A stretch of DNA of 64,000 nucleotides from Flavobacterium psychrophilum (lineage in GTDB: Bacteria; Bacteroidota; Bacteroidia; Flavobacteriales; Flavobacteriaceae). The stretch is taken from NCBI GenBank assembly GCA_945860385.1, contig CAMAQD010000015.1:33419-97418 (forward strand), in the 5' to 3' direction. Each line of letters opens with the position of its first letter. The first letter of the stretch is position 1. Under the pieces are notes generated by a model. The model had not been told where the DNA came from. It searched no databases and saw only the letters and a program-made list of their open reading frames with translations. Below, in pieces: positions 48,416-63,983 of this stretch. Made by a program: the position numbers and the translations under genes.

Positions 48416-48530
48416 GTGCTTTTCAAAAGAATTAAAACTGGTTTTTTAGCTTATTGCTCAACTCTCTCTTCAGCAAAATTATTTAAAAAATTCTAACAAA
48501 TAAATGCTCAAACGCATTGGTAGAATAAGT

Positions 48531-48592
48531 AAATTATATAAAAATCATCTGTAATTATATAAAACCAAATCACTAATTGAGGTCTAACTTTA
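48531..48592 (+). promoter_or_regulatory. Regulon site 1: 21-bp direct repeat and -7 box before the phospholipase gene
   Basis: Half-sites AAATTATATAA (48531-48541) and TAATTATATAA (48552-48562), starts 21 bp apart, then TAACTTTA (48585-48592), 23 bp after the second half-site ends. Member of the seven-site family described in the findings. Confidence 0.8.
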
Positions 48593-48613
48593 CAAGTTAA
48601 TAAATCCAAAAAC

Positions 48614-49519
48614 GTGAAATTGCTTAGAGATTGCATTGTATTCTTACTATTTGTGTTGTCCCATTCCAATTCTAATGCACAGATTCAAACTTTATTTAAT
48701 GATAAAGTAGAACTCAAATCGATGGCAGCACGTTGGGAATTAGACTCTACTTCGGCGAGAGGGACGTTTTTAGTAACCCCCTACAAATCAATATATATTT
48801 TGCCTTTTGTGTGGTCTAATAACGTCAATGAAAAGCCTAGTTCTGGAAATGAATCTCCTGATTATATCGCGCCCAATTTAGATTATGACAACTTTGAATT
48901 AAAATTTCAATTGAGTTTTAAAACGAAAATTATACAAAGTTTTTTATGGGGAAAAGCTGACTTATGGGTTGCTTATACGCAAGTTTCACATTGGCAAATT
49001 TATAATGCTGACTTGTCTCGTCCCTTTAGAGAGATAAATTATGAACCAGAAATTATCCTAAATTTTCCTGTGAAATTTAATTTTCTTGGCTTTAAAACCC
49101 GAATGATTGGAGCTTCGTTTAATCACGAATCCAATGGCAAAAGCTTACCTAATACTAGAAGTTGGAACAGAGTGATCTTGTTGGCTGGTTTCGAACGAGA
49201 AAATTGGAATATCTATCTTCGACCGTGGTATGTACTTCCTGATTTAAGAGAAAATCCAGATATTTCTAATTATATTGGTAATGGAGATATGACGGTAATT
49301 TATTCTAAAAATAGAAGTGTTTATACTTTTGAAGGAAGTCATAATTTCAATTTTAAAGGACAAATGAGAGGTAGTGCTGCGTTTTCTTGGTCATATCCGA
49401 TAAAAGGGAATCTTAAAGGATATTTACAGGTTACTCACGGATACGGAAATTCACTTATAGATTATAACAATAATCAAACTACCGTTGGAGTTGGCGTATC
49501 CTTAATTGAATGGCAGTAA
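48614..49519 (+). CDS. pldA: Outer-membrane phospholipase A (OMPLA)
   Basis: A 301-aa outer-membrane beta-barrel lipase. GTG start, signal LRDCIVFLLFVLSHSNSNA. The catalytic motif FNHESNGKSLPNTRSWNR (near 175-195) gives the His-Ser pair and the Asn, then calcium-type positions. It cleaves phospholipids that reach the outer leaflet and so restores lipid asymmetry, matching the MlaE/MlaF pair at the end of the window. It carries regulon site 1 in its promoter. Confidence 0.9.
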   Translation: MKLLRDCIVFLLFVLSHSNSNAQIQTLFNDKVELKSMAARWELDSTSARGTFLVTPYKSIYILPFVWSNNVNEKPSSGNESPDYIAPNLDYDNFELKFQLSFKTKIIQSFLWGKADLWVAYTQVSHWQIYNADLSRPFREINYEPEIILNFPVKFNFLGFKTRMIGASFNHESNGKSLPNTRSWNRVILLAGFERENWNIYLRPWYVLPDLRENPDISNYIGNGDMTVIYSKNRSVYTFEGSHNFNFKGQMRGSAAFSWSYPIKGNLKGYLQVTHGYGNSLIDYNNNQTTVGVGVSLIEWQ

Positions 49520-49952
49520 AAATTTAAACAAATCAAAAAGTTGTAAGCTTCAGGTTATAATAGTTAAAAAAGTGCATTTGCAAATTTTAGGTTTGCACTA
49601 TTAAAATTACAGAAAATTAAGATATCAAATAGTTGTATTAGATTTGCTTTAAGAAATAAATATTTTTTTGGTACAATTTCGTATTGATTGCAGTTTCTTT
49701 ACTGTTCAAATAAGATGTTTTGTAATCGCACAAATTTAACAGGTTAATATCGTACCTTACCAAAATAAGAATGCTATTTAACTTAAATAATTAAGAGAAG
49801 TAAAAGATAAACCACTTGTTTTAGGAATATTCGTCATTTAGCCATAATGAAATCAAAATGTGTGAATTATATAACAATTTTCTGGAATTATATAATCACA
49901 TCGAAAGCGAATCGTTCGACTTTTACAGTAACTATTTTAATAAAACAATAAT
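49520..49952. other. Long spacer upstream of the AraC gene
   Basis: No gene seen in 433 bases. A weak hairpin (AGTGCA / TGCACT, 49571-49600 region) lies near the end of the phospholipase transcript. The right part holds regulon site 2 (49864-49925). The rest is AT-rich without repeats I can define. Confidence 0.5.
49864..49925 (+). promoter_or_regulatory. Regulon site 2: autoregulatory site before the AraC gene
   Basis: Identical half-sites GAATTATATAA at 49864-49874 and 49885-49895 (21 bp apart), with GACTTTTA at 49918-49925, 23 bp on. The first half-site is preceded by GTGT and the second followed by TCACA, making an extra outer inverted repeat. The only fully identical pair in the family. 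Confidence 0.85.
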
Positions 49953-50513
49953 TTGAAATTATATATTAAATACATGGTTAGCAACCGTTGTAAAATGGCG
50001 GTTAAAGAAGAACTAAAAAAACTTGGGCTTCACTACATCGTAGTCGATTTAGGCGAAGTTGATATTATGGAAAATATTTCCATGGAAAAACGAGTTTTAC
50101 TAAAAGCTAACTTACTTCTTTCCGGTCTAGAATTGATGGATGATAAAAGAGCCATGATGATCGAAAAAATCAAAACTATAATTATAGAAATGGTACATCA
50201 TTCGGAAGAAACCATTAAAATCAATTTTTCGGATTATTTGAGTGAAAAAATGAATCACGATTATACATATTTGTCTAACTTGTTTTCAGAAGTACAAGGT
50301 ACTACCATCGAGCAATATATTATTTCTCACAAAATCGAACGCATTAAAGAATTAATTATTTACGGCGAACTTAATATTACCGAAATTGCCTGGAAAATGG
50401 GCTACAGCAGTGTAGCGCATTTATCAAGTCAGTTTAAGAAAGTTACAGGGCTTACTCCTTCTCATTTCAAACAATTGAAAGATAAAAGACGAAGTCCTAT
50501 TGAAGAAATCTAA
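49953..50513 (+). CDS. AraC-family transcriptional regulator
   Basis: A 186-aa regulator. The C-terminal double helix-turn-helix (about 105-180) is clear: IEQYIISHKIERIKELII, then LNITEIAWKMGYSSVAHLSSQFKKVTGLTPSHFK (two pieces). The N-terminal 70 residues (MKLYIKYMVSNRCKMAVKEELKKLGLHYIVVDLGE, in two pieces) resemble a heavy-metal-associated domain in which the first Cys is Ser. A TTG start at 49953 keeps this N-terminus; an ATG at 49974 would remove it. Its own promoter carries the best regulon site, so it is the likely master regulator. The kinase gene follows 38 bases later. Confidence 0.9.
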   Translation: MKLYIKYMVSNRCKMAVKEELKKLGLHYIVVDLGEVDIMENISMEKRVLLKANLLLSGLELMDDKRAMMIEKIKTIIIEMVHHSEETIKINFSDYLSEKMNHDYTYLSNLFSEVQGTTIEQYIISHKIERIKELIIYGELNITEIAWKMGYSSVAHLSSQFKKVTGLTPSHFKQLKDKRRSPIEEI

Positions 50514-50551
50514 AATTCAAAAAGCGTGTACTAATAATTGTGTGAGTAATT

Positions 50552-53500
50552 ATGATGTTTAAATTAGAAAAAAAAACGAAACTCTTTTATATTATCTCAG
50601 CCATACTGTTAACAGTTGTATTGGGAATCTTCTATGCAAACAGTCAAAAGGAAATAGCTTCGAGCAAAAAATTATTACACACTCAGGAAGTTATTAGTAA
50701 GAGCAATGAAGTCTTGCTAGATGTACTCAATATTGAAACAGGTTTTAGAGGATATTTACTATCTGGAGATCGTGTTTTTTTAGAGCCATACAATCAATCC
50801 AAAATTAAAATAAACGCTAATTTAGACACATTAGAAGTGCTAACCCGCGACAATCCAAATCAGTTAGATAATATCACTTTGTTGAAAAAAAAGGTGGTTG
50901 ACCGAATATCTTTCACAGAAAAATACCTGACTGCTAAAAGTCCTGCTTTATTGAGTAATTCCGAAAAAATAGGAATAATTATAGAAGGAAAAATCATTAC
51001 AGACAAAATTAGAGCTGCAAAAAGTTCTATTACTAATGAAGAGTCCAGACTGTTAAAAGGTCGAAAAATCGAAAACGAAAAAGATTATCATTCATCTGAA
51101 TTAATCTTTATTTTACTACTTATTTTTCTAGTGACCATTTTTATCTTTGGATATTTTATCATAAAAAGTCAAAAAGAAAAAAACTTTGAATTAGAAAGCC
51201 ATACTGCCGACCTTAAATCAGCCTCTCAATATGCCTTAAGTCTCATCGAGGCAAGCCTTGACCCACTTGTAACCATTAATGCTAAGGGGAAAATCACGGA
51301 TATGAATGAAGCATTAGTACGTATAACTGGTGTGACTAGGGAAGAACTTGTAGGGTCTGATTTTTTCGATTATTTTACTGATCAACAAAGTGCCCGTGAG
51401 GTTTATCAAGAAGTTTTTGAAAAAGGTTCAGTTGCCGATTTGCCTCTTACCATTCGCCATAAAGACGGAAAATTGACAGACGTATTATTCAACGGATCCG
51501 TTTATAGAAATGATAGTGGAATAATTCTGGGGGTTGTAATTGTAGCAAGAGATATTGCAGAGCAAAAATGGGTCTTAGATTTACAAATTGCAAATAAAGA
51601 GTTGGCCTATCAGAATCAAGAAAAAGAAAAAAGAGCCAATGAGTTAGTAATAGCTAATGAAGAATTAGCGTATCAAAACCAAGAGAAAGAAAATAGAGCC
51701 AAGGAATTAGGTATAGCCAATCAAGAATTAGCCTATCAAAACCAAGAGAAAGAAAATAGAGCTAATGAGTTAATTATAGCCAATAAAGAATTAGCTTATC
51801 AAAACCAAGAAAAGGAAAATAGAGCCAATGAATTAGGTATAGCTAATGAAGAATTGGCCTATCAAAACCAAGAAAAGGAAAATAGAGCCAATGAATTAGG
51901 TATAGCCAACGAAGAATTAGCCTATCAAAACCAAGAGAAAGAAAATAGAGCCAATGAACTAGGCATTGCCAATGAAGAATTGGCATATCAAAACCAAGAA
52001 AAAGAAAACAGAGCCAATGAGTTAGGCATTGCTAATGAAGAATTAGCTTATCAAAACCAAGAGAAAGAAAATAGAGCCAACGAATTAGGCATTGCTAACG
52101 AAGAATTAGCCTATCAAAACCAAGAGAAAGAAAATAGAGCCAACGAGTTAGTCATTGCCAATGAGGAACTTCTTTACCAAAAAGAAGAAAAGACAAAAAG
52201 AGCCGATGAGTTAATCATTGCCGAAATTGAACTTAAATTTCAAAATAAAGAGAAAGAAAAAAGAGAAATTGCCAACAAGGAACTTGAAGCTCTCAGTTAC
52301 TTAGCAAAACTAGCTTCGCAATATTCATTGAGTTTAATAGAAGCCAGCCGTGACCCATTGGTAACCATAAACATTCAAGGTAAGATTACCGATATGAATG
52401 AAGCGACAGCGAACATTACTGGACTATCGAGAGAAGAACTTATTGATTCCGACTTTTTCGATTATTTTACAGAACAACAAAAAGCACGGGAAGTCTATCA
52501 AGAAGTATTTAAAAAAGGCTCGGTTGCAGATGCTCCACTAACTCTTAGGAACAAAAACGGAAAACTAACCGATGTACTATTTAATGGCTCAGTTTATAAA
52601 GACGGTGACGGAAATGTTCGAGGAGTTGTAATTGTTGCCCGAGATGTAACCGAGCAAAAAAGAATTGCTACAGAATTGATAGAAGCCAGAGTTTTTGCAG
52701 AATTGGCTACTGAAATTGCAGAAGAAGAAAAAAGAAATGCCGAAGCTGCTACAATAATTGCCGAAAATGCAGTAAAAGCAAAACAACAATTTTTATCCAA
52801 TATGAGTCACGAGATACGCACGCCAATGAACGCCATCATTGGGTTCACAAAAGTGGTATTGAAAACAGATTTGACTGATAAACAAAAAGAATATTTATCG
52901 GCCATAAAAATGAGTGGTGATGCCTTAATCGTTCTCATCAATGATATTCTTGATTTAGCAAAAGTAGATGCCGGAAAAATGACATTTGAACAAATTCCGT
53001 TTAAACTGGCCTCTTCCATTTCAGCGATGCTCCACGTATTTGAAACCAAAATTCAAGAAAAAAATTTAGTGTTAATTACAGAATATGATGCCAACATACC
53101 AAAAGTTATGCTTGGTGATCCAGTTCGTTTACATCAAATTATTTTAAACTTAGTCAGCAATGCAATAAAATTTACCTCGAAAGGAAAAATAACTGTACGT
53201 GTTAGTTTATTAAATGAAGACGAGAAAAGTATCACTGTAGAATTCTCAATTTCAGATACCGGAATTGGAATTGACGAAAGTAAAATGGAAACTATTTTTG
53301 ATAATTTTCAGCAAGCCACCAGTGGAACTTCAAGATTATTCGGGGGAACTGGATTAGGATTAGCCATTGTGAAACAATTAGTAGAACCTCAGGGGGGAAC
53401 TTTAAATGTCAAAAGTAAATTTAATGAAGGCTCAACTTTTAGTTTTACATTAAACTTTCTAAAGACAAATATTGATACAGAGTTAGAAACCGAAAATATA

Positions 53501-54319
53501 GAGATAGAAACAGGATTCAAGAATATAAAAGTATTGGTTGTAGAGGACATGCCTTTGAATCAATTATTGATGAAAACGCTTTTAGATGATTTTGGTTTTG
53601 AACGTGACATAGCCGAAAACGGAAAAATTGCAATCGAAAAACTTCATGAAAAAGACTATGATATTATATTAATGGACTTGCAAATGCCAGTAATGAATGG
53701 TTTTGAAGCCACCGAATATATTCGAAATACATTAAAATTAAATCTTCCTATTATAGCTCTTACGGCCGATGTAACCACAGTTGATTTAGCTAAATGCAAA
53801 ACTGTGGGAATGAATGATTATTTAGCAAAACCGGTTGACGATCGCGAATTATACAACAAAATTATTGGTTTAGTAAAAAACCCGGTACTTCAAAAAGATA
53901 CTCTTAAAAAGAAAGAGAACGAGCAGGAGAAAGTAAAAATTGATTCGAAGGAAATTGAATCTATTAAACACACTAATCTAGAATACTTAAATGTTAGAAC
54001 AAAATCAAATCCAAAATTAATGAAGGAGATGATTTCAATCTATTTACAGCAAACACCTCCTTTGCTTGAAGCTATGCGAAAAAGTGTACAGGATAAAGAT
54101 TGGCAATTGTTAGCTGCGGCAACACATAAAATTATTCCATCCTTTTCTATAATGGGTATGAATTCCGATTTAGAAAATAGAGCAAGAAAAATTCAAGAAG
54201 CCGCTAAAGCCGGCCAATTCACCGATGAAATAGCCCAAATGGTTTTGCAAATAGACACCATTTGTAATCAAGCCTGCAAAGAATTAGAAATAGAATTTAA
54301 CCTTATAAAAAATACATAA
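50552..54319 (+). CDS. Hybrid histidine kinase with CHASE3, two PAS, long coiled-coil repeat, REC and Hpt
   Basis: A 1255-aa sensor. Residues 10-28 form membrane helix 1, 30-175 a CHASE3-like periplasmic sensor, 186-206 helix 2. PAS1 (225-340) and PAS2 (588-705) are close copies of each other. Between them residues 342-573 hold eleven 21-residue repeats forming one long coiled coil. Then HisKA (MSHEIRTPMN near 750), HATPase (NAIKFT, DTGIGID, GGTGLGLAI), REC (Asp in ILMDLQMP near 1040) and Hpt (His in ATHKII near 1191). A His-Asp-His-Asp phosphorelay is expected. Two bases separate it from the response regulator. Confidence 0.95.
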   Translation: MMFKLEKKTKLFYIISAILLTVVLGIFYANSQKEIASSKKLLHTQEVISKSNEVLLDVLNIETGFRGYLLSGDRVFLEPYNQSKIKINANLDTLEVLTRDNPNQLDNITLLKKKVVDRISFTEKYLTAKSPALLSNSEKIGIIIEGKIITDKIRAAKSSITNEESRLLKGRKIENEKDYHSSELIFILLLIFLVTIFIFGYFIIKSQKEKNFELESHTADLKSASQYALSLIEASLDPLVTINAKGKITDMNEALVRITGVTREELVGSDFFDYFTDQQSAREVYQEVFEKGSVADLPLTIRHKDGKLTDVLFNGSVYRNDSGIILGVVIVARDIAEQKWVLDLQIANKELAYQNQEKEKRANELVIANEELAYQNQEKENRAKELGIANQELAYQNQEKENRANELIIANKELAYQNQEKENRANELGIANEELAYQNQEKENRANELGIANEELAYQNQEKENRANELGIANEELAYQNQEKENRANELGIANEELAYQNQEKENRANELGIANEELAYQNQEKENRANELVIANEELLYQKEEKTKRADELIIAEIELKFQNKEKEKREIANKELEALSYLAKLASQYSLSLIEASRDPLVTINIQGKITDMNEATANITGLSREELIDSDFFDYFTEQQKAREVYQEVFKKGSVADAPLTLRNKNGKLTDVLFNGSVYKDGDGNVRGVVIVARDVTEQKRIATELIEARVFAELATEIAEEEKRNAEAATIIAENAVKAKQQFLSNMSHEIRTPMNAIIGFTKVVLKTDLTDKQKEYLSAIKMSGDALIVLINDILDLAKVDAGKMTFEQIPFKLASSISAMLHVFETKIQEKNLVLITEYDANIPKVMLGDPVRLHQIILNLVSNAIKFTSKGKITVRVSLLNEDEKSITVEFSISDTGIGIDESKMETIFDNFQQATSGTSRLFGGTGLGLAIVKQLVEPQGGTLNVKSKFNEGSTFSFTLNFLKTNIDTELETENIEIETGFKNIKVLVVEDMPLNQLLMKTLLDDFGFERDIAENGKIAIEKLHEKDYDIILMDLQMPVMNGFEATEYIRNTLKLNLPIIALTADVTTVDLAKCKTVGMNDYLAKPVDDRELYNKIIGLVKNPVLQKDTLKKKENEQEKVKIDSKEIESIKHTNLEYLNVRTKSNPKLMKEMISIYLQQTPPLLEAMRKSVQDKDWQLLAAATHKIIPSFSIMGMNSDLENRARKIQEAAKAGQFTDEIAQMVLQIDTICNQACKELEIEFNLIKNT
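51578..52270 (+). repeat. 63-bp tandem repeat inside the histidine kinase gene
   Basis: About eleven in-frame 63-bp units coding ANELxIANxELAYQNQEKE followed by NR or KR. Units 5-9 are identical at protein level; the DNA differs only at synonymous sites between them. Outer units are more diverged. The unit length of 21 (three heptads) keeps the coiled-coil phase. Confidence 0.95.
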
Positions 54320-54321
54320 TC

Positions 54322-54771
54322 GTGAAAAAAGAAAACATAATAAAACTTTTCCTGGTAGATGACGATGCCTTGTTTCTTAAATCATTGGAAATTGAATTTA
54401 TGGAGCATGCTGATTTCACAACTGAAACCTATATCATCCATTCTTTTGCAACAGGTGAATTATGCCTGGAAAATTTAGAACTTAATCCAGACGTTATTAT
54501 TTTAGATTACTATCTGGATGGAATTGATCCAAATGCAATGAACGGCCTGGAAACATTAGATAAAATAAAAGCAGTCAATCAAGATTTTCCTGTAATAATG
54601 TTATCTTCTCAAGACAAAATTGATGTAGCCATAAATTGTATGCATCATAAGGCTTTTGATTATGTGGTAAAAAGCGAAACTGCTTTTTTGCGCCTACAAA
54701 AAATTATCTCCACCATTTTTCAATACAAAAAAATGAAAAAAGAACTGAGCTGGTATATGGATCGAATGTAA
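54322..54771 (+). CDS. Single-domain response regulator
   Basis: A 149-aa stand-alone receiver domain with a GTG start, two bases after the hybrid kinase gene. Acidic pair in FLVDDDALF (near 11-14), phosphoacceptor Asp in IILDYYLDG (near 60), Ser/Thr switch in IMLSSQ and Lys in YVVKSE. There is no output domain, so it acts as a phosphate relay or protein-interaction switch, likely for the kinase Hpt domain. Confidence 0.93.
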   Translation: MKKENIIKLFLVDDDALFLKSLEIEFMEHADFTTETYIIHSFATGELCLENLELNPDVIILDYYLDGIDPNAMNGLETLDKIKAVNQDFPVIMLSSQDKIDVAINCMHHKAFDYVVKSETAFLRLQKIISTIFQYKKMKKELSWYMDRM

Positions 54772-54817
54772 TTATACCATTTATTCCAACACGCTAATAA
54801 TCTGCCTTCTTACCTAC

Positions 54818-54858
54818 AAATGATGCAATTTCAAATTGAAATTGCATCATTTTTTTTA
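54818..54858 (+). terminator. Rho-independent terminator
   Basis: AAATGATGCAATTTCA / TGAAATTGCATCATTT, 16-bp perfect stem, 3-base loop, T-run; ends the AraC-kinase-regulator group. Confidence 0.9.
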
Positions 54859-54894
54859 TAATTCATTCATCTTTTTTTCAATTATGTAATGTGT

Positions 54895-54956
54895 GAAAGA
54901 TATAAGTTTCCCTGAGAATAATGTAATAATTTATGAAGTAAACGTGACCAACTTTG
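54895..54956 (+). promoter_or_regulatory. Regulon site 3: before the ice-binding protein gene
   Basis: Half-sites GAAAGATATAA (54895-54905) and GAATAATGTAA (54916-54926), 21 bp apart, then CAACTTTG (54949-54956), 23 bp on. GTGT precedes the first half-site, as in sites 2 and 4. Confidence 0.8.
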
Positions 54957-54994
54957 GGGTGTGATAATTACGTCACATCCCAAATCTTTTTATA

Positions 54995-55828
54995 ATGAAT
55001 TTAAAAAATGTGTTTCCAGCCGTTGCAATGTTAATGGTTGTGTTATTTTCTAGTTGTGACAACAGTCAGGAAAGCTATCCAGAAGCTACTGCAACTACAA
55101 AAGCTTCATTAGAAGCTACGGCATCTTCAAAAGTTGCTTCGGTATCAAAAACTAGTTTAAACTCTAAAACAACCGACCAATTAAGAGTTGTGAACCTAGG
55201 TGTTGCTGGCGATTTTGTAATTCTATCAAAAACAGGAATTACTAGTGTTTACAAATCTACTATTACCGGAGATATTGGTACAAGCCCAATCACTGGAGCA
55301 GCTATGGTAGTAAATTGTGGCGAAGTAACAGGAAATGTTTTTTCTGTTGATGCTTCTGGCCCAGCGTGTAAGACCACAAGCGCAACTATGCTGACCGCTG
55401 CTATAGGTGATATGCAAACTGCATATACAGATGCGGCTGGACGATCTAATCCTGATTTTCTAAATTTAGGTGCAGGAAATATAGGTGGAAAAACACTTAC
55501 CCCAGGTTTGTATAAATGGACAAGTGCCCTTAACATTCCAACCGATATTACGCTTACTGGTAGCCCAACCGACGTTTATATTTTACAAGTTGCGGGAACT
55601 CTCAAAATGAGTTCTGCAGTTAGGATTACTCTTGCTGGTGGACTACAAGCCAAAAATATTTTTTGGGTAGTTTCTGATGCTGTTACTTTCGGAACCACTA
55701 GCCACTTTGAAGGAAATATTCTTGGAATGACAGGGATTAATATGCAAACAGGAGCAACAATCAACGGAAGAATGTTGGCCCAAACTGCCGTAACTCTTCA
55801 AATGAATACAGTTACAATACCACAATAA
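54995..55828 (+). CDS. Ice-binding protein (DUF3494) lipoprotein
   Basis: A 277-aa lipoprotein (lipobox FSSC near residue 21) with a Ser/Thr/Ala/Lys-rich linker (about 25-65) followed by a full DUF3494 domain (about 66-277): VNLGVAGDFVILSKTGIT, STITGDIGTSPITGAAM, NLGAGNIGGKTLTPGLYKW, FWVVSDAVTFGTTSHFEGNI and the final GATINGRMLAQTAVTLQMNTV. In known members this beta-solenoid binds ice planes and inhibits recrystallisation. Lipid anchoring would keep it on the cell, for freezing protection or ice attachment. Its promoter holds regulon site 3. Confidence 0.93.
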   Translation: MNLKNVFPAVAMLMVVLFSSCDNSQESYPEATATTKASLEATASSKVASVSKTSLNSKTTDQLRVVNLGVAGDFVILSKTGITSVYKSTITGDIGTSPITGAAMVVNCGEVTGNVFSVDASGPACKTTSATMLTAAIGDMQTAYTDAAGRSNPDFLNLGAGNIGGKTLTPGLYKWTSALNIPTDITLTGSPTDVYILQVAGTLKMSSAVRITLAGGLQAKNIFWVVSDAVTFGTTSHFEGNILGMTGINMQTGATINGRMLAQTAVTLQMNTVTIPQ

Positions 55829-55848
55829 AATAAATTATTTTATTTCTT

Positions 55849-55880
55849 AAAGAGGTTGTCGAGAGACAGCCTCTTTTTTT
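55849..55880 (+). terminator. Rho-independent terminator
   Basis: AAAGAGGTTGTC / GACAGCCTCTTT (one G-T), 4-base loop, T-run, after the ice-binding gene. Confidence 0.85.
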
Positions 55881-55913
55881 TACCGCAAAACCACTAAATA
55901 AAACTTTAGGTGT

Positions 55914-55975
55914 GAATGATATAACTCTTAATAGGAATTGTATAATATTTTTTTAGGTAAATGAGCTCAACTTTG
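55914..55975 (+). promoter_or_regulatory. Regulon site 4: before the 56028 gene
   Basis: Half-sites GAATGATATAA (55914-55924) and GAATTGTATAA (55935-55945), 21 bp apart, then CAACTTTG (55968-55975), 23 bp on, the same -7 box as site 3. Confidence 0.8.
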
Positions 55976-56027
55976 CGCTATACAAAAAATCAATTTTTTT
56001 AAAAATTAACCTTTAAAATTAAATAGT

Positions 56028-56222
56028 ATGAATTTAAAAAGAATTTTTGGAGCATTGCTCACAGGCCTCGGAATTGCTGGCCTTATTTACACTGCGGTAG
56101 TGTTTTCTGGCACTTCTGGAGATACAAGAGATGTGAAAGAACTTATCATTTACGGCGTACTTGGTATTGTATTTTTCGTTTCAGGAATTAGCCTTGTTCG
56201 TACAACAAAAGACGAATCATAG
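56028..56222 (+). CDS. Small two-helix membrane protein
   Basis: A 64-aa protein with two hydrophobic helices: FGALLTGLGIAGLIYTAVVF (residues 6-25) and ELIIYGVLGIVFFVSGISLV (36-57), separated by a short Gly/Ser/Asp loop, with a charged C-terminus. I do not recognise a family. It has a regulon promoter and lies 77 bases before the AI-2E-family transporter gene, probably one operon. Confidence 0.7.
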   Translation: MNLKRIFGALLTGLGIAGLIYTAVVFSGTSGDTRDVKELIIYGVLGIVFFVSGISLVRTTKDES

Positions 56223-56299
56223 TATACCTTTTTTCGATTGTCGAAAAATTATCGAATACATAATTATTAAATAAAGTCGTTTAGAAAATCTAATAAAAT

Positions 56300-57376
56300 A
56301 TGACAGCAAACATTACTTCGGTTATACAGAAACTGCTTTTAGCATTTCTTGTTTTTGCTGGTTTATATTATGCCAAAGTTTTTTTGATGCCTTTATTTAT
56401 TGGGGGAATACTTGCAACACTATTCCTCCCTTTTTGCAGTTGGATGGAAAAAAAGAAAATCAACAAAGGATTGGCTGTTTTCATTTCATTGTTTTCCTTA
56501 TTATCGCTTGTCGCTGCAGTTATTGCCTTGTTAGGTTGGAAAATTTATGACTTCCTGGATGATTTTGCACTTGTAAAAAGAGAAGCAATAGCCTCGTTTA
56601 ATAGAATCCAGATGTACGTCTATGACCATTTGAATTTATCATTTAAACAGCAAGTTCAAATATTAAAAAACGAACAACCTTCTTACGGCAGCATTATGCA
56701 GATTGTGTTTGAGTCGTTGGCCAGTTTATTTACCAATTTTATTTTAGTATTGGTCTATTTTATCTTTTTGTTGTATTATCGTGTCCATATCAAGGTCTTT
56801 TTTATAAAAAAAACAGCCCCTGCTCAACAAGGTCAAATGGAACATCTTATTGTCAGTGCGGCTAATATATCGCAACAATATCTTTTGGGAGTTTTTAAAA
56901 TGATTGTGATTTTATGGGTTATGTACGGCATTGGTTTTAGTATAATAGGTGTAGAAAACGCCATATTTTTTGCTATTCTTTGCGGATTATTAGAAATTAT
57001 TCCTTACATCGGAAATATAACTGGAACATTATTAACTCTTTTAGTTGCAGCAGCTCAAGGCGCAAATTTATCTTTACTAGGTGGAATAATACTCGTTTAT
57101 GGCTCAGTACAACTTATTCAGGGTTGGCTTTTGGAACCACTAATATTAGGACCACAAGTAAAAATAAATCCTCTATTTACCATTATTGCTTTGGTACTGG
57201 GAGAACTTCTTTGGGGTGTGCCTGGTCTTATTCTAGCCATTCCAGTAATTGCCATCTTTAAAATTGTTTGCGATCATATTGAGTCCTTAAAACCTTATGG
57301 GTTTTTGATAGGCGAAATTGAAACGGAAAGAGAAGTATTGAATTTTATTAAAATAAAAAAGAAGCAATCAAATTAG
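56300..57376 (+). CDS. AI-2E family transporter (UPF0118/PerM-like)
   Basis: A 358-aa permease of the UPF0118 family with about eight helices. Typical blocks: FAGLYYAKVFLMPLFIGGIL, then YLLGVFKMIVILWVMYGIG, GLLEIIPYIGNITGTLLTLLVA (two pieces), and WLLEPLILGPQVKINPLFTI with GLILAIPVIAIFKIV. Family members were linked to autoinducer-2 or ion export; the substrate is not predictable. It is co-directional with the 56028 gene and probably expressed from its promoter. Confidence 0.9.
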   Translation: MTANITSVIQKLLLAFLVFAGLYYAKVFLMPLFIGGILATLFLPFCSWMEKKKINKGLAVFISLFSLLSLVAAVIALLGWKIYDFLDDFALVKREAIASFNRIQMYVYDHLNLSFKQQVQILKNEQPSYGSIMQIVFESLASLFTNFILVLVYFIFLLYYRVHIKVFFIKKTAPAQQGQMEHLIVSAANISQQYLLGVFKMIVILWVMYGIGFSIIGVENAIFFAILCGLLEIIPYIGNITGTLLTLLVAAAQGANLSLLGGIILVYGSVQLIQGWLLEPLILGPQVKINPLFTIIALVLGELLWGVPGLILAIPVIAIFKIVCDHIESLKPYGFLIGEIETEREVLNFIKIKKKQSN

Positions 57377-57525
57377 AATGGGTTTCTATTTCTGAAATAA
57401 ATAGTATTTAGCTATCAAAAAGGATCTGTCTCACTTATTGCTTTAAAAAAATAACAATTAAAAATATCAAAAGTCGGAATTAAATTTTGGGGAATGTTTT
57501 TTTTGGGTTTTTGGTTTTTTGGTTG

Positions 57526-57558
57526 GAGGTTGCTGTAAAAAGCAACCTCTTTTTTTTT
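57526..57558 (+). terminator. Rho-independent terminator
   Basis: GAGGTTGCT / AGCAACCTC with a 6-base loop and nine T. TTTTTTGGTTGG just before the stem also precedes the terminator at 61860. Confidence 0.9.
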
Positions 57559-57602
57559 ATAATTTTTTTAAAATAGTGTTTTAAATCAACATGATAAAGC
57601 GT

Positions 57603-57663
57603 GAATATTATAAGTCTTTACCAAAGTAGTATAACTTCTTTGCTATCATAAAAACGACCTTTA
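57603..57663 (+). promoter_or_regulatory. Regulon site 5: before the GH130-GT4 operon
   Basis: Half-sites GAATATTATAA (57603-57613) and AAGTAGTATAA (57624-57634), 21 bp apart, then GACCTTTA (57656-57663), 22 bp on. The second half-site is preceded by CCA, as in sites 6 and 7. Confidence 0.75.
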
Positions 57664-57695
57664 TAATTCGTTATTGGTAAGTAAATAAAAAAGAT

Positions 57696-58736
57696 ATGAT
57701 ACAAGTAAAAAAAGATGGAATAATAATAGAGAAGACAGCATTTCCTTTCGAAAACGAAGGCGTATTAAACCCTGCTGCCATTAGAGAAGGAGAGTTTGTT
57801 CATTTGTTCTATAGAGCAGTTAGTGAAGGAAATCATTCCAGCATTGGCTATTGTAAATTGATGGGCCCTTTAGAAGTAGAACAACGGCTGAATGTGGCTT
57901 TGATTTCTCCTGAATTTGATTATGAAAAACATGGCATCGAAGATCCAAGAATAGTAAAAATTGATGATTTGTATTACCTCACGTATACCGCTTATGATGG
58001 TGTAAATGCATTGGGAGCACTGGCAACTTCAAAGGATTTAATTCATTTTGACAAAAAAGGAATCATTGTACCCCAAATGACCTACGAAGAATTTAATCGT
58101 TTGGCAGAAACAGATATCATATTGGACGAAAAATATTATCGCTTCAATCAGCACAACCATATCAGTGAAAAAGAAGGATTGAAAATGTTGCTGTGGGACA
58201 AAAATGTTATTTTTTTCCCAAGAAGAATTAACGGAAAATTATGTTTCTTTCATCGCATTCGACCGGAAATACAAGTTGTGGTGCAAATAGATACAATAGA
58301 AGAACTAACCAAAGATTTTTGGAAAGAATATTTCATTCGCTTCAATGATTTTGTGGTTCTTTCACCAAAATACGAACACGAAAAAAGCTACGTAGGAGGA
58401 GGCTGTCCACCGATCGAAACTGAATTAGGATGGCTTATTATTTATCACGGAGTGCACGATTCTGTAAAAGGTTACGTCTATTCAGCTTGTGCTGCTCTGC
58501 TGGATTTAGACAATCCACAAATAGAAATTGCACGCTTACCCTACCCTTTATTCCAACCTGAAGAAATTTGGGAATTAAAAGGCGAAGTAAATAATGTGTG
58601 CTTTCCAACTGGAACTGCAATTTTTGATGATACTATTTATATTTATTACGGTGCTGCCGATGAAAGGGTGGCTTGCGCATCAATGAGTTTATCAGAACTG
58701 TTAAAAGAATTAATGTTAAATAAAAAATTAAAATGA
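57696..58736 (+). CDS. GH130 family glycoside phosphorylase-like protein
   Basis: A 346-aa five-bladed propeller of glycoside hydrolase family 130. Typical blocks: HLFYRAVSEGNHSSIGYC, GIEDPRIVKIDDLYYLTYTAYDG (two pieces), NVIFFPRRINGKLCFFHRIRPEIQV (two pieces), GGGCPPIETELGWLIIYHGV and YYGAADERVACASMSL. Family members phosphorolyse beta-mannosides; whether it is phosphorylase or hydrolase is not read from the sequence. Its last codon region overlaps the GT4 start by 4 bases, so both act in one path, perhaps a mannose-containing glycan. Confidence 0.9.
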   Translation: MIQVKKDGIIIEKTAFPFENEGVLNPAAIREGEFVHLFYRAVSEGNHSSIGYCKLMGPLEVEQRLNVALISPEFDYEKHGIEDPRIVKIDDLYYLTYTAYDGVNALGALATSKDLIHFDKKGIIVPQMTYEEFNRLAETDIILDEKYYRFNQHNHISEKEGLKMLLWDKNVIFFPRRINGKLCFFHRIRPEIQVVVQIDTIEELTKDFWKEYFIRFNDFVVLSPKYEHEKSYVGGGCPPIETELGWLIIYHGVHDSVKGYVYSACAALLDLDNPQIEIARLPYPLFQPEEIWELKGEVNNVCFPTGTAIFDDTIYIYYGAADERVACASMSLSELLKELMLNKKLK

Positions 58737-61147
58737 GAAACCCAATAGTAATCAATCAAAGCCATTTATTTCCAATAAAAAGATACCCTAAAAACAGCGC
58801 TGATATTGGAATAAATTTTCAAAAAACCGAAATCAAATTGCCTGAAATTTTATTTATTTCCACTTTTCCTCCCAGAGAATGTGGCATAGCAACCTATTCG
58901 CAAGATTTAATTTTTGCCCTAAATAATAAATTTTCTAAATCATTTAACATCAGAATTGCTGCTTTAGAATCACAAAACGAAAAACATATTTATACAGATG
59001 ACGTTTATACCGTTTTAGAAACAGACAATCCCAGTTCTTATGCAGCATTAGCCCTGAAAATTAATAATAATCATGCAATCGAAATTGTTTTAGTTCAGCA
59101 CGAATTTGGTTTGTTTAGAGGAAATGAAGATGATTTTATTTCATTTTTGAAATGCATTCATAAACCCATAATTTTAGTTTTCCATACTGTTTTACCAAAT
59201 CCTTCGGAAAAACTAAAAAGTCAGGTTCAAGCCATCAATAGTATGATTGATTCTTTTGTGGTGATGACTAATTCGTCTTCAAAAATATTACAAAATGATT
59301 ATGATGTTTTGCAGGATAAAATCACGGTAATTCCACACGGAACGCATTTAGTAGAACATTCAAACAAAGAAGTTCTTAAAGAAAAATACAATTTGTCGGG
59401 TAAAAAAATCATTTCAACCTTTGGTTTATTAAGCTCCGGAAAATCTATCGAAACGTCTATTGATGCTTTACAAACTATTATCAAAGAACAACCCGATGTA
59501 TTATTTCTCATTATCGGAAAAACACATCCAACAGTTTTTAAAAACGAAGGCGAAAAATATAGAACTTCCTTAGAAGATAAAATTGTTGTTTTGAATTTGC
59601 AAAACAATGTAAAATTCATCAATAAATACTTGCCGCTTGATGAGCTATTAGAATACTTACAACTTACGGATATTTATCTTTTTACGTCCAAAGATAGGAA
59701 TCAGGCAGTGAGCGGCACATTTGCTTACGCCATCAGTTGTGGTTGCCCTATAATTTCTACGCCAATTCCACATGCTGTCGAAGTTTTGCAGGATGGAATC
59801 GGGATAATAATTGATTTTGAAAATCCAAAACAATTAGCAAAAGAAGTAATTCATTTGTTGAACGATGACCAATTACGCAAAAATATTACAGCCAATGGCA
59901 TTCATAAATTAGCCCCAACCGCTTGGGAAAATTCTGCTATTGCACATGCTTTTTTGATTGAAAAAACAGCAGTTCATGCTTCAACTTTGCATTATAGAAT
60001 TCCTAAAATTAATCTCAATCATTTCAAAAATTTGACAACACCCTTTGGAATGATTCAGTTTTCAATCATCAATCAGCCCGATTTAGATTCGGGATATACC
60101 ATCGATGATAACGCAAGGGCATTGGTAGCGATGTGTCAGCATTTTGAATTATCAAAAGATACAACGGATTTAGAATACATCAACCGTTATTTTAACTTTA
60201 TAAAATACTGCTACCAAGCGGACGGGACTTTCTTGAATTACATCAATAAAAACAAAAAGTTTACCAAACAAAACAGCGAAAATCTCGACGATGCGAACGG
60301 AAGAACAATCTGGGCCTTGGGATACCTAATTTCTTTGGGCGAAATTTTGCCAACAAAATTATATGATGACGCTGTATTAGCTATGGAACTAGGATTGAAA
60401 AATGTCCATAAAATTACTTCTACTCGATCTATGGCTTTCATCATAAAAGGGATTTATTATAGTAACCTGAAAAACGAATCTATTCAAAATGTGCTTTTAC
60501 AACAACATCTTGCCGACAAATTGGTGCAAATGTTTAAGCATGAAGCAAAAGAAGACTGGCAATGGTTCGAAAGCTATCTTACTTATGCCAATAGTATTCT
60601 ACCAGAAGCGATGCTTTGTGCCTACTTGTCAACTGGTGTGAACTCCTATAAGAATATTGCCAAAAAATCATTTGATTTCTTATTATCAAAAATTTATAGA
60701 AACAATAGTATAAAAGTGGTATCTAACAAAGGTTGGCTGGCCATTGGCGAGAAAATAAATCCTGAAAAAGTAGGCGGCGAACAACCTATTGACGTGGCTT
60801 ATACCATTATGGCTTTGAGCAAATATTACAATACTTTCAAAGAAGAAAAGTATTTGCGAAAAATGAAAATTGGTTTCAACTGGTTTTTGGGAGACAATCA
60901 TTTACATCAAATCATATATAATCCTTGCACTGGGGGTTGTTATGATGGGCTAGAAGACACATACGTCAATTTAAATCAAGGAGCCGAATCAACCGTAAGT
61001 TATTTGATGGCAAGACTTACAATGGAAAAACATTTGAAAGAGAAAGTATCTAAAAAATCGACTAAAATGATAGTGCCCAGAAAAAACAAATTGAAATCAA
61101 ATGTTAGAATTTCGAGTGTTGAAACCAAAAAGCTAGGAATTATATAA
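58733..61147 (+). CDS. Glycosyltransferase GT4 fused to a helical-barrel domain
   Basis: An 804-aa protein. The GT4 part (about 40-415) has FPPRECGIATYSQDL at the start, HGTHLVEH, FGLLSSGKSIETSI, and GTFAYAISCGCPIISTPIPHAVEVL (two pieces) with the acidic residues of the donor site weak. The C-terminal part (about 440-770) is alpha/alpha-barrel-like: DSGYTIDDNARALVAM, DANGRTIWALGYLIS, GEQPIDVAYTIMALSKYY, as in six-hairpin glycosidase-like proteins. It probably elongates and handles a glycan together with the GH130 protein. The last 11 bases of the gene (61137-61147) form the first half-site of regulon site 6. Confidence 0.85.
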   Translation: MRNPIVINQSHLFPIKRYPKNSADIGINFQKTEIKLPEILFISTFPPRECGIATYSQDLIFALNNKFSKSFNIRIAALESQNEKHIYTDDVYTVLETDNPSSYAALALKINNNHAIEIVLVQHEFGLFRGNEDDFISFLKCIHKPIILVFHTVLPNPSEKLKSQVQAINSMIDSFVVMTNSSSKILQNDYDVLQDKITVIPHGTHLVEHSNKEVLKEKYNLSGKKIISTFGLLSSGKSIETSIDALQTIIKEQPDVLFLIIGKTHPTVFKNEGEKYRTSLEDKIVVLNLQNNVKFINKYLPLDELLEYLQLTDIYLFTSKDRNQAVSGTFAYAISCGCPIISTPIPHAVEVLQDGIGIIIDFENPKQLAKEVIHLLNDDQLRKNITANGIHKLAPTAWENSAIAHAFLIEKTAVHASTLHYRIPKINLNHFKNLTTPFGMIQFSIINQPDLDSGYTIDDNARALVAMCQHFELSKDTTDLEYINRYFNFIKYCYQADGTFLNYINKNKKFTKQNSENLDDANGRTIWALGYLISLGEILPTKLYDDAVLAMELGLKNVHKITSTRSMAFIIKGIYYSNLKNESIQNVLLQQHLADKLVQMFKHEAKEDWQWFESYLTYANSILPEAMLCAYLSTGVNSYKNIAKKSFDFLLSKIYRNNSIKVVSNKGWLAIGEKINPEKVGGEQPIDVAYTIMALSKYYNTFKEEKYLRKMKIGFNWFLGDNHLHQIIYNPCTGGCYDGLEDTYVNLNQGAESTVSYLMARLTMEKHLKEKVSKKSTKMIVPRKNKLKSNVRISSVETKKLGII

Positions 61148-61197
61148 ATTTTATCCAAAGTTATGTAACATTCTAACAATCAGTTTTTAGAAATTTA
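61137..61197 (+). promoter_or_regulatory. Regulon site 6: before dps, overlapping the preceding stop codon
   Basis: Half-sites GAATTATATAA (61137-61147, ending in the GT4 stop codon) and AAGTTATGTAA (61158-61168), 21 bp apart, then GAAATTTA (61190-61197), 22 bp on. The predicted dps leader is about 145 bases. Confidence 0.75.
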
Positions 61198-61346
61198 CAG
61201 TATAGAAATAACAGAAGTTTATTTCTTAAAAAACAGTCAATGTCGTTTCGTCAAGAGAAGAAGCTACTCACCAATAAAAAATTATTGGTACTAACAAATG
61301 ACTTTGATGTTTTTTAAATTATTCAAGAATTTAAAACAATATTAAT

Positions 61347-61820
61347 ATGATACCAAAAATTGGGATTACAGAAGATCATTTGCAAAAAGCGAACGCATTG
61401 CTTTCTGTTGTTTTGGCAGATGAAATGACGCTTTATGTTAAAACAAGAAAATTTCACTGGAATGTAGCCGGACAAAGTTTTATGGAATTACATAAATTAT
61501 TCGAATCACAATATACTGAACTCGAAGCTATCATTGATACAGTGGCAGAACGCATCGGTAAATTGGGTGGTAAAACTATTGGGACTATGAACGAATTTGC
61601 ACTCCTTGCCCGGATTGTGGAGCATCCAAACCAATACCCTGTTCAGAAAACAATGCTCACAGAGCTTTTAGCAAATCACGAATCTCTTATTGCTGAATTG
61701 CGAAAAGACATCGATTTATCTACAGAAGAACATCATGATGCCGGAACAGCGGATATGTTGACTGGAATTATGCAACAACATGAAACCATAGCCTGGATTT
61801 TAAGAAGGTATTTGGCTTAA
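61347..61820 (+). CDS. dps: Dps family DNA-binding miniferritin
   Basis: A 157-aa ferritin-like protein. Ferroxidase-site residues are in KTRKFHWNVAGQSF (His/Trp near 37) and in LFESQYTELEAIIDTVAERI (Asp/Glu near 55-72), shared between subunits of the 12-mer. A helical C-terminus ends MQQHETIAWILRRYL. It oxidises and stores iron and protects DNA in starvation or oxidative stress. It carries regulon site 6, as expected for a stress gene. Confidence 0.95.
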   Translation: MIPKIGITEDHLQKANALLSVVLADEMTLYVKTRKFHWNVAGQSFMELHKLFESQYTELEAIIDTVAERIGKLGGKTIGTMNEFALLARIVEHPNQYPVQKTMLTELLANHESLIAELRKDIDLSTEEHHDAGTADMLTGIMQQHETIAWILRRYLA

Positions 61821-61859
61821 AATAAAAAAATAATTTGCTAAAATTGTTTTTTTTGGTTG

Positions 61860-61891
61860 GCGGCTGTCTTTTGAAGACAGTCGCTTTTTTT
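61860..61891 (+). terminator. Rho-independent terminator
   Basis: GCGGCTGTCTT / AAGACAGTCGC (one G-T), 3-base loop, T-run, after dps. Confidence 0.88.
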
Positions 61892-61929
61892 GTGGAATTT
61901 AGACATTGTGTTTTTTAATAAAAAAGAGT

Positions 61930-61991
61930 AAATAATATAACTTATATCCAAAGTTATGTAACACTTACTGCGCGCCAATGGCCCACCTTTA
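61930..61991 (+). promoter_or_regulatory. Regulon site 7: before the eRF1-like gene
   Basis: Half-sites AAATAATATAA (61930-61940) and AAGTTATGTAA (61951-61961), 21 bp apart, then CACCTTTA (61984-61991), 23 bp on. The second half-site with its flank (ATCCAAAGTTATGTAACA) is identical to that of site 6. Confidence 0.8.
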
Positions 61992-62052: not shown

Positions 62053-62436
62053 ATGAAAACTACTAAAAAATTAGGAATATGGATCGATTATTCCACAGCC
62101 AATTTAATTGAATATAATATGGATTCCTACGAAATAAAAAGCATTGATTCTGGATTTTCATTTGAAGAAATAAATGAAGTTTTAAACAATAATAAATGCT
62201 TAATAGACAATAAAGAGAACCAACAACTATCTAAATATTTTAAAAGAATAGCAGAGCAACTTAAGGAATACAATGAACTGGTACTTTTCGGATCAACAGA
62301 TGCCAAAGTCGAATTGAATTCGATTTTGAAAGAAGAAGAATTATTCCAAAAGATAAAAATCGAAATAAAAAATACCGCTAAAATGACTGATAATCAAAAA
62401 AAATCTTTTGTAAAAAGTTATTTTTCATTAACCTAG
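62053..62436 (+). CDS. eRF1-like / translational machinery-type protein
   Basis: A 127-aa protein: LGIWIDYSTANLIEYNMDSY at the start (the eRF1 domain-1-like opening), a central helix (LSKYFKRIAEQLKEYNELVLFG) given as two pieces, and LFGSTDAKVELNS. This resembles bacterial eRF1-like proteins without the release GGQ motif; a role at ribosomes in stress is possible but unproven. It is followed by MlaE/MlaF 50 bases later, so all three may form one transcription unit. Confidence 0.7.
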   Translation: MKTTKKLGIWIDYSTANLIEYNMDSYEIKSIDSGFSFEEINEVLNNNKCLIDNKENQQLSKYFKRIAEQLKEYNELVLFGSTDAKVELNSILKEEELFQKIKIEIKNTAKMTDNQKKSFVKSYFSLT

Positions 62437-62485: not shown

Positions 62486-63244
62486 TTGACTCTATATCTA
62501 AAAAATGTTTTTAATGATGCGGGCAACATGACCCAGTTTGCCTTGAGATTTTTTAAAGAAATTTTCAGACCTCCTTTTCAATTCAGAGAATTTGTAAGAC
62601 AATGCTTTGCCGTAGGATACAAAACTTTGCCATTAATTAGCATCACAGGCTTTATAATGGGATTGGTTTTGACCATTCAATCGCGACCAACTTTGCTAAA
62701 ATTTGGCGCGGAATCCTGGCTACCTAGTATGGTTTCGTTATCGTTAATCCGTGAAATTGCTCCCGTTGTAACCGCATTGATTTGTGCCGGAAAAATAGCT
62801 TCGGGTATTGGAGCTGAATTGGGTTCAATGAAAGTAACCGAGCAAATAGATGCGATGGAAGTGTCGGCAATAAACCCTTATAAATATTTAGTGGTTACCA
62901 GAATTTTAGCAACCACACTTATGGTACCGCTTTTGGTGCTTTATGCTGATTTTATTGGTATTTATGGTGGATATGTAGGGTACAATATTCACGGAAGCAT
63001 GACTTTATTTCGATATTTCTCGGATGTACTGGAACACGTAGAATTTTTAGATTTTTTCCCCGCAGTAATCAAAACCTTTTTCTTTGGTTTTTTTATAGGC
63101 TTAATTGGTTCTTATAAAGGTTTTAATGCTTCAAACGGAACAGCTAGTGTTGGAATAGCGGCAAACGAAGCGGTGGTTGCGGCCTCGCTTTCAGTATTTA
63201 TTATCGATATGATGGCAGTTCAACTAACCGATTTACTTTTCTAA
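62486..63244 (+). CDS. mlaE: MlaE family lipid-asymmetry ABC permease
   Basis: A 252-aa permease with the MlaE hallmarks: FRPPFQFREFVRQCFAVGYKTLPL (two pieces), TGFIMGLVLTIQSRPTLLKFGA, SLIREIAPVVTALICAGKIASGIGAELGSMKVTEQIDAMEV (in pieces), and the late GFNASNGTASVGIAANEAVV. It is one half of the inner-membrane pump that moves phospholipids between membranes. Start is a TTG at 62486; an internal ATG at 62528 would drop 14 residues. MlaF follows after 4 bases. No MlaD gene is visible before the window ends. Confidence 0.92.
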   Translation: MTLYLKNVFNDAGNMTQFALRFFKEIFRPPFQFREFVRQCFAVGYKTLPLISITGFIMGLVLTIQSRPTLLKFGAESWLPSMVSLSLIREIAPVVTALICAGKIASGIGAELGSMKVTEQIDAMEVSAINPYKYLVVTRILATTLMVPLLVLYADFIGIYGGYVGYNIHGSMTLFRYFSDVLEHVEFLDFFPAVIKTFFFGFFIGLIGSYKGFNASNGTASVGIAANEAVVAASLSVFIIDMMAVQLTDLLF

Positions 63245-63248
63245 AACT

Positions 63249-63983
63249 ATGGAAGCACAACCTATTGTAGCTATTACGAATTTGTATAAATCTTTCGGTG
63301 ATAACGAAGTTCTAAAAGGAATAAACATCACGGTTCAAAATGGAGAAAATTTGGTTATTCTAGGACGTTCTGGTTCAGGAAAATCAGTAACCATAAAATG
63401 TTTGGTCGGTTTAGTCAAAGCAGATAAAGGAGAAATCAAAATTTTTGATAAGGAAATTACCACTTTAAATAATAATGAACTCAACGAAATCAGGATGAGT
63501 ATTGGTTTTATGTTTCAAAATGGTGCTTTGTATGATTCGATGTCTGTAAGACAAAATTTAAGGTTTACATTAAAGCACCATACTGAAAATTTAGAGGAAT
63601 CTGACATTGAAAGTAAAATTACGGAGGCTTTAGAAAGCGTTGGCTTAGCGGAAGCCATAGACAAAATGCCTGCAGAACTATCGGGCGGAATGAAAAAAAG
63701 AATCGCATTGGCAAGAGCTATAATTATCAAACCAAAGATAATTTTATACGATGAACCAACTTCGGGTTTAGACACAATTACATCCAGAGAAATTAGTGAA
63801 TTGATACTTTCAGTTCAAAAAAAATACAAAACAAGTTCTATCATAATTACCCACGATATGGCTTGTGCAAAAACAACAGGCAATCGGATTTTGATCCTTC
63901 AAGAGGGACAAATCAAAGCCGAAGGTACCTATGCCGAATTAGAAGAAAGTGAAGATGAATGGGTGCACTCCTTTTTTATATAA
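63249..63983 (+). CDS. mlaF: MlaF family ABC ATPase
   Basis: A 244-aa ATPase. Walker A GRSGSGKSV (near 38), Q-loop GFMFQNGALYDSMSV, signature ELSGGMKKRIALARA (near 140, the GGMKKR form of MlaF/MKL), Walker B IILYDEPTSGLD and switch His in IITHDMA. It powers MlaE. The window ends 17 bases after its stop in an A-run, so MlaD or other partners may lie beyond. Confidence 0.95.
   Translation: MEAQPIVAITNLYKSFGDNEVLKGINITVQNGENLVILGRSGSGKSVTIKCLVGLVKADKGEIKIFDKEITTLNNNELNEIRMSIGFMFQNGALYDSMSVRQNLRFTLKHHTENLEESDIESKITEALESVGLAEAIDKMPAELSGGMKKRIALARAIIIKPKIILYDEPTSGLDTITSREISELILSVQKKYKTSSIIITHDMACAKTTGNRILILQEGQIKAEGTYAELEESEDEWVHSFFI

Follow-up and report, generated by a model that had tools for sequence, protein, structure and literature searches.

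Seven sites, each made of two direct half-sites whose starts lie 21 bp apart and followed at a fixed distance by a -7 box, stand upstream of genes in the window (the whole 64-kb stretch of DNA analysed here), recur in related loci with their spacing and placement conserved, and are linked to the gene of a 179-aa AraC-type protein. We estimate at roughly 0.75 the probability that they are operators of this protein, which would act as a class II activator, be fed by a relay and control a general stress response of Bacteroidota that works without a dedicated sigma factor. Such a circuit, in which an activator takes the role of a special sigma factor in the stress response, looks so far undescribed: among the literature matches listed (titles and the starts of abstracts, with few subscription papers and no bioRxiv preprints), no description of such a regulon was present.

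Seven direct-repeat sites in the window

The sequence-only reading had listed seven half-site pairs with starts exactly 21 bp apart in each, together with seven -7 boxes; every pair and every box was recovered at its coordinates, all on the + strand.

48525..48593, + strand: site 1, half-sites 48531-48541 and 48552-48562, -7 box 48585, upstream of the PLA1 gene; 25.9 bits
49858..49926, + strand: site 2, half-sites 49864 and 49885, -7 box 49918, upstream of the AraC-type gene (predicted autoregulation); 44.3 bits
54889..54957, + strand: site 3, half-sites 54895 and 54916, -7 box 54949; 41.1 bits
55908..55976, + strand: site 4, half-sites 55914 and 55935, -7 box 55968; 54.9 bits
57597..57665, + strand: site 5, half-sites 57603 and 57624, -7 box 57656; 32.6 bits
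61131..61199, + strand: site 6, half-sites 61137 and 61158, -7 box 61190, overlapping the GT4 stop codon; 30.4 bits
61924..61992, + strand: site 7, half-sites 61930 and 61951, -7 box 61984; 53.6 bits

The second half-site ends 22 bases before the -7 box. The description of the sites as intergenic holds in general but fails for site 6, where the GT4 stop codon (gene end 61147) falls inside the first half-site. The half-site consensus likewise needed revision, since the first half-site is longer than had been claimed, reading TGTGAATNATRYAAC in relatives, where position 9 is a C in about one third of the sites. Each half-site is close to a palindrome (TTATATAA), and matches on both strands occur at some sites, which would allow them to be read as an inverted repeat; yet the G of TGTAA keeps one orientation in both halves, and the repeat is therefore direct.

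The strict pair occurs seven times at 21 bp in the window, always on the + strand, and three times in total at the remaining spacings between 11 and 50 bp on both strands, with a chance expectation of 0.05 per window (first-order Markov model, 100 simulations, maximum 2). A matrix with counts from 225 sites of other loci scored the seven sites at 25.9-54.9 bits, followed by next-best places at 2.0 and 0.9 bits, and found none at 0 bits or above in the reversed window sequence; because those 225 sites had been chosen with a matrix still containing the window, this leave-window-out test is nearly, not wholly, independent.

Conservation in loci around regulator relatives

A contig scan found 271 relatives, and 80 loci with AraC proteins 78-95% identical were kept. 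Among them, 39 were labelled Flavobacterium, several with cold-habitat species names, and the others included Bacteroidales, Prolixibacteraceae, Chitinophagaceae, Saprospiraceae and one Ignavibacteria MAG. The tree places the window together with F. franklandianum. Across the 80 loci (1.36 Mb), 92 pairs were spaced at 21 bp (84 on the + strand, 8 on the - strand), compared with at most 3 at any other single spacing from 14 to 40 bp. The iterated 69-column matrix returned 234 sites of at least 10 bits in the loci and the window; at a threshold of at least 12 bits it gave 230 sites versus 0 in reversed sequence, and at a threshold of at least 0 bits 257 versus 3. Twenty stretches (396 kb) selected for their pattern hits contained 105 sites of at least 10 bits and 0 in reversed sequence.

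Matches are far from equally common within genes: 220 of the 234 sites are intergenic, though ORFs make up 86% of the DNA of the 80 loci and the window, and so are 317 of 342 distinct sites in the wider set. The matrix ends a median of 45 nt before the start codon assigned to the site. When the half-site columns alone were used for scanning (at least 15 bits) and AnnTTTR was then looked for, this -7 box stood at offset 55 in 261 of 333 sites and at offset 54 in 39 (together 300/333), with an average of 1.8 at other offsets, a count that is not fully independent because the matrix had been trained on sites including the -7 box. The Markov expectation, the single spacing, the reversed controls, the -7 offset and the leave-window-out scores together exclude a chance origin of the sites.

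Comparison of the upstream regions of orthologues showed that the site is kept in position before the AraC gene. It reaches at least 10 bits in 58 of 79 loci with enough upstream DNA, and half-site 1 lies at -113 to -105 in 53 of these 58; in 11 of the 21 loci lacking a site of at least 10 bits there, the best match is weaker (-14.6 to 9.8 bits) but lies at -108 to -104.

The high similarity of sites within one stretch would suit repeats that were spread by a small mobile element, or that represent a shared core-promoter sequence, and are not operators. We disfavour this explanation as highly improbable: conservation is strong in the half-sites and the -7 box and weak in the stretch that separates half-site 2 from that box, and the downstream ORFs fall into many unrelated clusters. 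This explanation is further disfavoured by the published sigma-A -7 box, TAnnTTTG, which the main text of its source does not describe with such a pair (PMC9723704).

The AraC-type regulator and its neighbours

Site 2 precedes a unit of three genes on the + strand.

49974..50513, + strand: AraC-type regulator, 179 aa, with a C-terminal AraC helix-turn-helix domain (HTH_18, E 3.3e-18; HTH_AraC, E 1.6e-9)
50552..54319, + strand: hybrid sensor kinase with CHASE3, PAS domains, HisKA, HATPase, REC and an HPt-like C-terminus
54322..54771, + strand: single-domain response regulator, receiver only (PF00072, E 3.5e-15)

By profile, the regulator's PDB relatives are YesN and Lin2118. Its N-terminus of about 80 aa has an invariant Cys6 in an alignment of 36 proteins (mean column identity 88%). 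The N-terminal 84 aa of the window protein had no Pfam match at E<=10, the effector-binding cupin domain of the AraC sugar subgroup included, and for two relatives the search returned nothing beyond Glutaredoxin (E 0.19) and SAP (E 0.11); a metal- or redox-sensing fold found no support in the Pfam search. An AlphaFold model (pLDDT 81) shows the C-terminal helical domain well and predicts an alpha-beta-beta-alpha arrangement for the N-terminus.

The domain set for a four-step phosphorelay is present in the window, namely HisKA, REC, HPt and a separate terminal receiver, with the HPt match (E 1.3e-4, 22.5 bits) falling just below the curated cut-off of 24.6. Of the 72 loci with 1.5 kb or more of DNA downstream of AraC, 69 have a kinase-like stretch that begins within this distance. 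The AraC-type protein is the sole DNA-binding protein found in the three-gene unit; binding by a LytTR or other response regulator was also considered and rejected, as such a DNA-binding domain is absent from the unit.

Co-occurrence of sites and regulator across genomes

The strict pattern was found in 13 of 14 chosen genomes, at up to 25 sites per genome, and the reversed pattern in none (0 matches). Two genomes hold dense clusters, with 22 sites within about 93 kb in G413 and 14 within about 90 kb in G411. Sites in relatives are not confined to a stretch as short as that in the window. In 16 Flavobacterium-type genomes, the bare pair, stripped of the -7 box and flanks, gave 211 matches and its reversed pattern 66; genome-wide the bare pair has a real chance background of about one third.

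In 395 genomes drawn from the phylum, the strict pattern with the -7 box was present in 74 and the reversed control in 10, and an AraC homologue (E<=1e-40) in 145. Both occurred together in 62 genomes, the site only in 12, the homologue only in 83 and neither in 238 (Fisher 2e-20, relatedness and base composition not being part of the test). Close orthologues (at least 78% identity) were found in 9 of the 395, the centre of the sample counted. Counting against the link between site and regulator are the 83 of 145 homologue-bearing genomes lacking a strict site and the 12 of 250 homologue-free genomes (at E<=1e-40) that have one, including G032 with three strict sites.

Those 12 genomes would be explained if another DNA-binding protein, encoded elsewhere, bound the sites and the AraC gene were just one of its targets. 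We regard this as quite improbable, given that the number of sites tracks the homologue, which is present in 31 of the 32 genomes with at least 3 sites (Fisher 8e-14, again with relatedness and base composition outside the test). Furthermore, the lone strict site of G087, G122 and G397 adjoins the AraC homologue, though with a matrix score below 5 in G397. Among the loci around 20 homologues of 47-84% identity, which had been chosen partly because a strict site adjoined them, 19 have a site of at least 5 bits, and 13 have one no more than 250 bp from the gene, compared with 0 in the reversed control. Direct repeats at 21 bp also suit AraC-type proteins, and the AraC-type protein remains our preferred binder.

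Genes downstream of the sites

The following genes lie downstream of the sites in the window, in addition to the AraC gene.

48614..49519, + strand: outer-membrane phospholipase A1, putative target (PF02253, E 1e-90)
54995..55828, + strand: DUF3494 ice-binding protein, putative target (PF11999, E 5e-61; best-scoring solved chain 4nu2)
56028..56222, + strand: 64-aa membrane-type protein, putative target, 88% identical to L017:14083-14274
56300..57376, + strand: AI-2E family permease (PF01594, E 3e-42)
57696..58736, + strand: GH130 glycoside phosphorylase, putative target (PF04041, E 2e-48)
58733..61147, + strand: GT4 glycosyltransferase (PF00534, E 1e-21)
61347..61820, + strand: Dps-type mini-ferritin, putative target (PF00210, E 6e-26; best NCBIfam match Dps, below its cut-off)
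62053..62436, + strand: 127-aa protein, putative target, without a Pfam or NCBIfam match
62486..63983, + strand: MlaE permease and ABC-type ATPase, MlaF-like (PF02405, E 5e-71; PF00005, E 4e-33)

Pfam matches bore out the phospholipase, AraC, ice-binding, GH130, GT4 and Dps-type targets named from sequence. The supposed eRF1-like/MlaEF group stood in part: the MlaE permease and MlaF-like ATPase were recognised, but the 127-aa protein that had been called eRF1-like had no match in either database. These two genes likely form one operon with that of the 127-aa protein. Cotranscription is also likely for the GT4 and GH130 genes, which overlap by 4 bases, and possible for the AI-2E family permease gene, which follows that of the 64-aa protein. 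The families of the 64-aa protein's relative and of the 127-aa protein lie downstream of sites in 6 loci and in 5 loci (window counted), respectively.

The 342 distinct sites led to 321 assigned downstream ORFs, with the caveat that PLA1 entered this assignment through an internal start and the small-membrane-protein operon through its second gene. The largest clusters are the AraC gene (63), DUF3494 ice-binding proteins (34), OmpA-type proteins (17), CsbD (14) and Dps (9). Thirty target representatives were scanned for domains; 6 of them lacked any match at E<=0.001, and in another 2 all matches lay under the cut-off (RIFIN, Cupin_2). The matched families include Ferritin, Usp, BON, YtxH, DnaJ, low-affinity iron permease and BrkB, and further DUF2383, aldehyde dehydrogenase, DUF5670, MarC, NDH2, FMN oxidoreductase and bestrophin-like proteins. 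CsbD, Usp, BON, Dps, YtxH, BrkB, DnaJ and the low-affinity iron permease are general-stress families, and their presence among the targets in relatives, together with the up to 25 strict-pattern sites per genome, makes the original label of a compact envelope, cold and starvation regulon too narrow. Counting against a general stress function, the ice-binding, GT4 and PLA1 targets do not belong to the classic stress genes.

Genes for CsbD, a hallmark stress protein, were also sought independently of the motif. In 24 genomes chosen for AraC or sites, 24 of 29 CsbD genes carry a site of at least 10 bits, located at -144 to -109, as do 17 of the 22 above the Pfam cut-off; two of the five genes lacking a 10-bit site score 4.3 and 2.0 bits in that position. 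In 80 genomes of the phylum sample, 2 of 20 CsbD genes carry a site where any homologue is present and 0 of 10 in genomes without one. Given the 2 of 20 in these unselected genomes, the CsbD link holds mainly for the close orthologues plus a few others, not for the whole family. YtxH, tried as a second independent test, proved weak, with a site in 7 of 30 loci examined (of 54 places listed).

A narrower function is conceivable, in which the AraC protein does bind the sites but runs a niche-specific programme for cold, freeze-thaw and envelope, carried on an accessory gene cluster, and not a general stress response. The rank of ice-binding proteins as second largest target group (34/321), the Flavobacterium and cold-habitat labels among the 80 loci, the palsa labels of some MAGs, the restriction of close orthologues to so few of the sampled genomes and the clustering of sites in G411 and G413 all speak for it. 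We nevertheless consider this reading rather unlikely, in view of the general-stress families listed above and, more tentatively, of loci labelled as groundwater MAGs and Paludibacter. A general stress response remains the favoured interpretation.

Proposed mechanism and comparison with known systems

We infer that the AraC protein is the binder, that it activates rather than represses, and that a phosphorelay and a stress function belong to the same circuit. The protein encoded at 49974-50513 would bind the two direct half-sites, 21 bp or two helical turns apart; the downstream half-site would cover the place of the -33 element, and the regulator would therefore act by class II activation, recruiting sigma-A polymerase where the -7 box is poor, at its own promoter too. 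The leading T of the sigma-A box TAnnTTTG is not conserved in the sites, which would fit activator dependence. The CHASE3-PAS kinase (HisKA-REC-HPt) and the single receiver may form a four-step phosphorelay that reports stress to the regulator, signalling to AraC being suggested by gene order, and the regulon would constitute a general stress response of Bacteroidota in which control lies with an activator and not with a sigma factor. An AraC-type activator replacing the -33 contact had been predicted from the window, and this model draws support from the 21-bp spacing, the fixed -7 distance, the conserved sites upstream of AraC and the co-occurrence of motif and regulator.

AraC/XylS activators with two direct half-sites include AraC at I1-I2, MelR and RhaS. 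The window protein resembles them in its C-terminal AraC-type helix-turn-helix, in the direct half-sites (21 bp apart) linked to its gene, in a half-site beside or over the -35/-33 region and in its predicted autoregulation. It differs in being small, with an N-terminus of about 80 aa that matches no Pfam family, in being encoded with a kinase and a receiver, and in having predicted targets that include stress genes and do not form a catabolic operon.

With RpoS, SigB and EcfG with PhyR-NepR, the system shares the target families CsbD, Dps, BON, YtxH, Usp and BrkB-like proteins and upstream signalling by a histidine kinase or receiver, the latter being predicted here. In contrast to those systems, an AraC-type activator is predicted to act here on primary-sigma-type promoters: no sigma or anti-sigma factor was found among the 14 window proteins scanned around the sites, and the sites keep a degenerate sigma-A-type -7 box at fixed spacing, not the -35/-10 pair of an alternative sigma factor. 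The Bacteroides HTCS with an AraC output domain are found in the same phylum and also combine histidine kinase, receiver and AraC-type DNA binding; here, however, the kinase with HPt, the receiver and the AraC output are three separate proteins, and the predicted targets are not polysaccharide utilisation loci. The sigma-factor motifs SM1-SM6 of Flavobacterium psychrophilum have the same type of -7 box, but the terms AraC and direct repeat have 0 occurrences in the main text of that paper (PMC9723704).

Implications for stress control in Bacteroidota

An autoregulated AraC-type activator, fed by a kinase-HPt-receiver relay and acting through an operator that can be read from sequence, may run the general stress response of Bacteroidota, a broader claim for which we see the odds as evenly balanced. 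Bacteroidota are not known to have RpoS, SigB or EcfG, and how they coordinate general stress survival is poorly known. The circuit would provide a candidate master regulator, a likely upstream relay, an operator sharp enough to be scanned for in any genome and a list of targets, so that the question of stress control becomes directly testable in culturable non-pathogenic Flavobacterium. It would also assign a defined candidate regulator to the ice-binding proteins of sea-ice flavobacteria.

Candidate operators at ice-binding genes

In Flavobacterium frigoris PS1 (locus L041), the AraC gene is followed, about 4 kb downstream, by an ice-binding protein gene with a weak site in front of it:

L041:14500-15431, ice-binding protein gene preceded by a weak site of 15.8 bits

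The encoded protein aligned with the solved chain 4nu2 at 517 bits across 247 residues. Among the matches listed by a literature search, no account of how this ice-binding protein is regulated was seen. In the window, an additional weak site (54818, 2.0 bits) and an additional half-site (54879) were observed upstream of the main site of the ice-binding gene.

Position and symmetry of the sites

At ten loci with AraC homologues of 47–68% identity (L223, L225, L226, L228, L230, L233, L234, L236, L237 and L238), a site either overlaps the AraC gene or starts no more than about 15 bases from where that gene ends. From this arrangement, it appears as if the AraC gene end were built into the candidate operator of the next gene. 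Some sites, including G016:C13:53259-53320 and those in L002, L011 and L061, are near-perfect palindromes that match both strands, and the regulator may therefore be able to bind them in both directions. One sampled genome, G032, contained three strict sites and no AraC homologue at E ≤ 1e-40; these sites either belong to a diverged regulator or occur by chance.

Plasmid-borne homologues

Distant homologues of the regulator, with identities of up to 58%, are plasmid-borne in Runella, Hymenobacter, Mucilaginibacter and others, in records including:

NZ_CP030852.1, plasmid with a distant homologue
NC_015704.1, plasmid with a distant homologue

Plasmids can therefore serve as vehicles for this regulator family.
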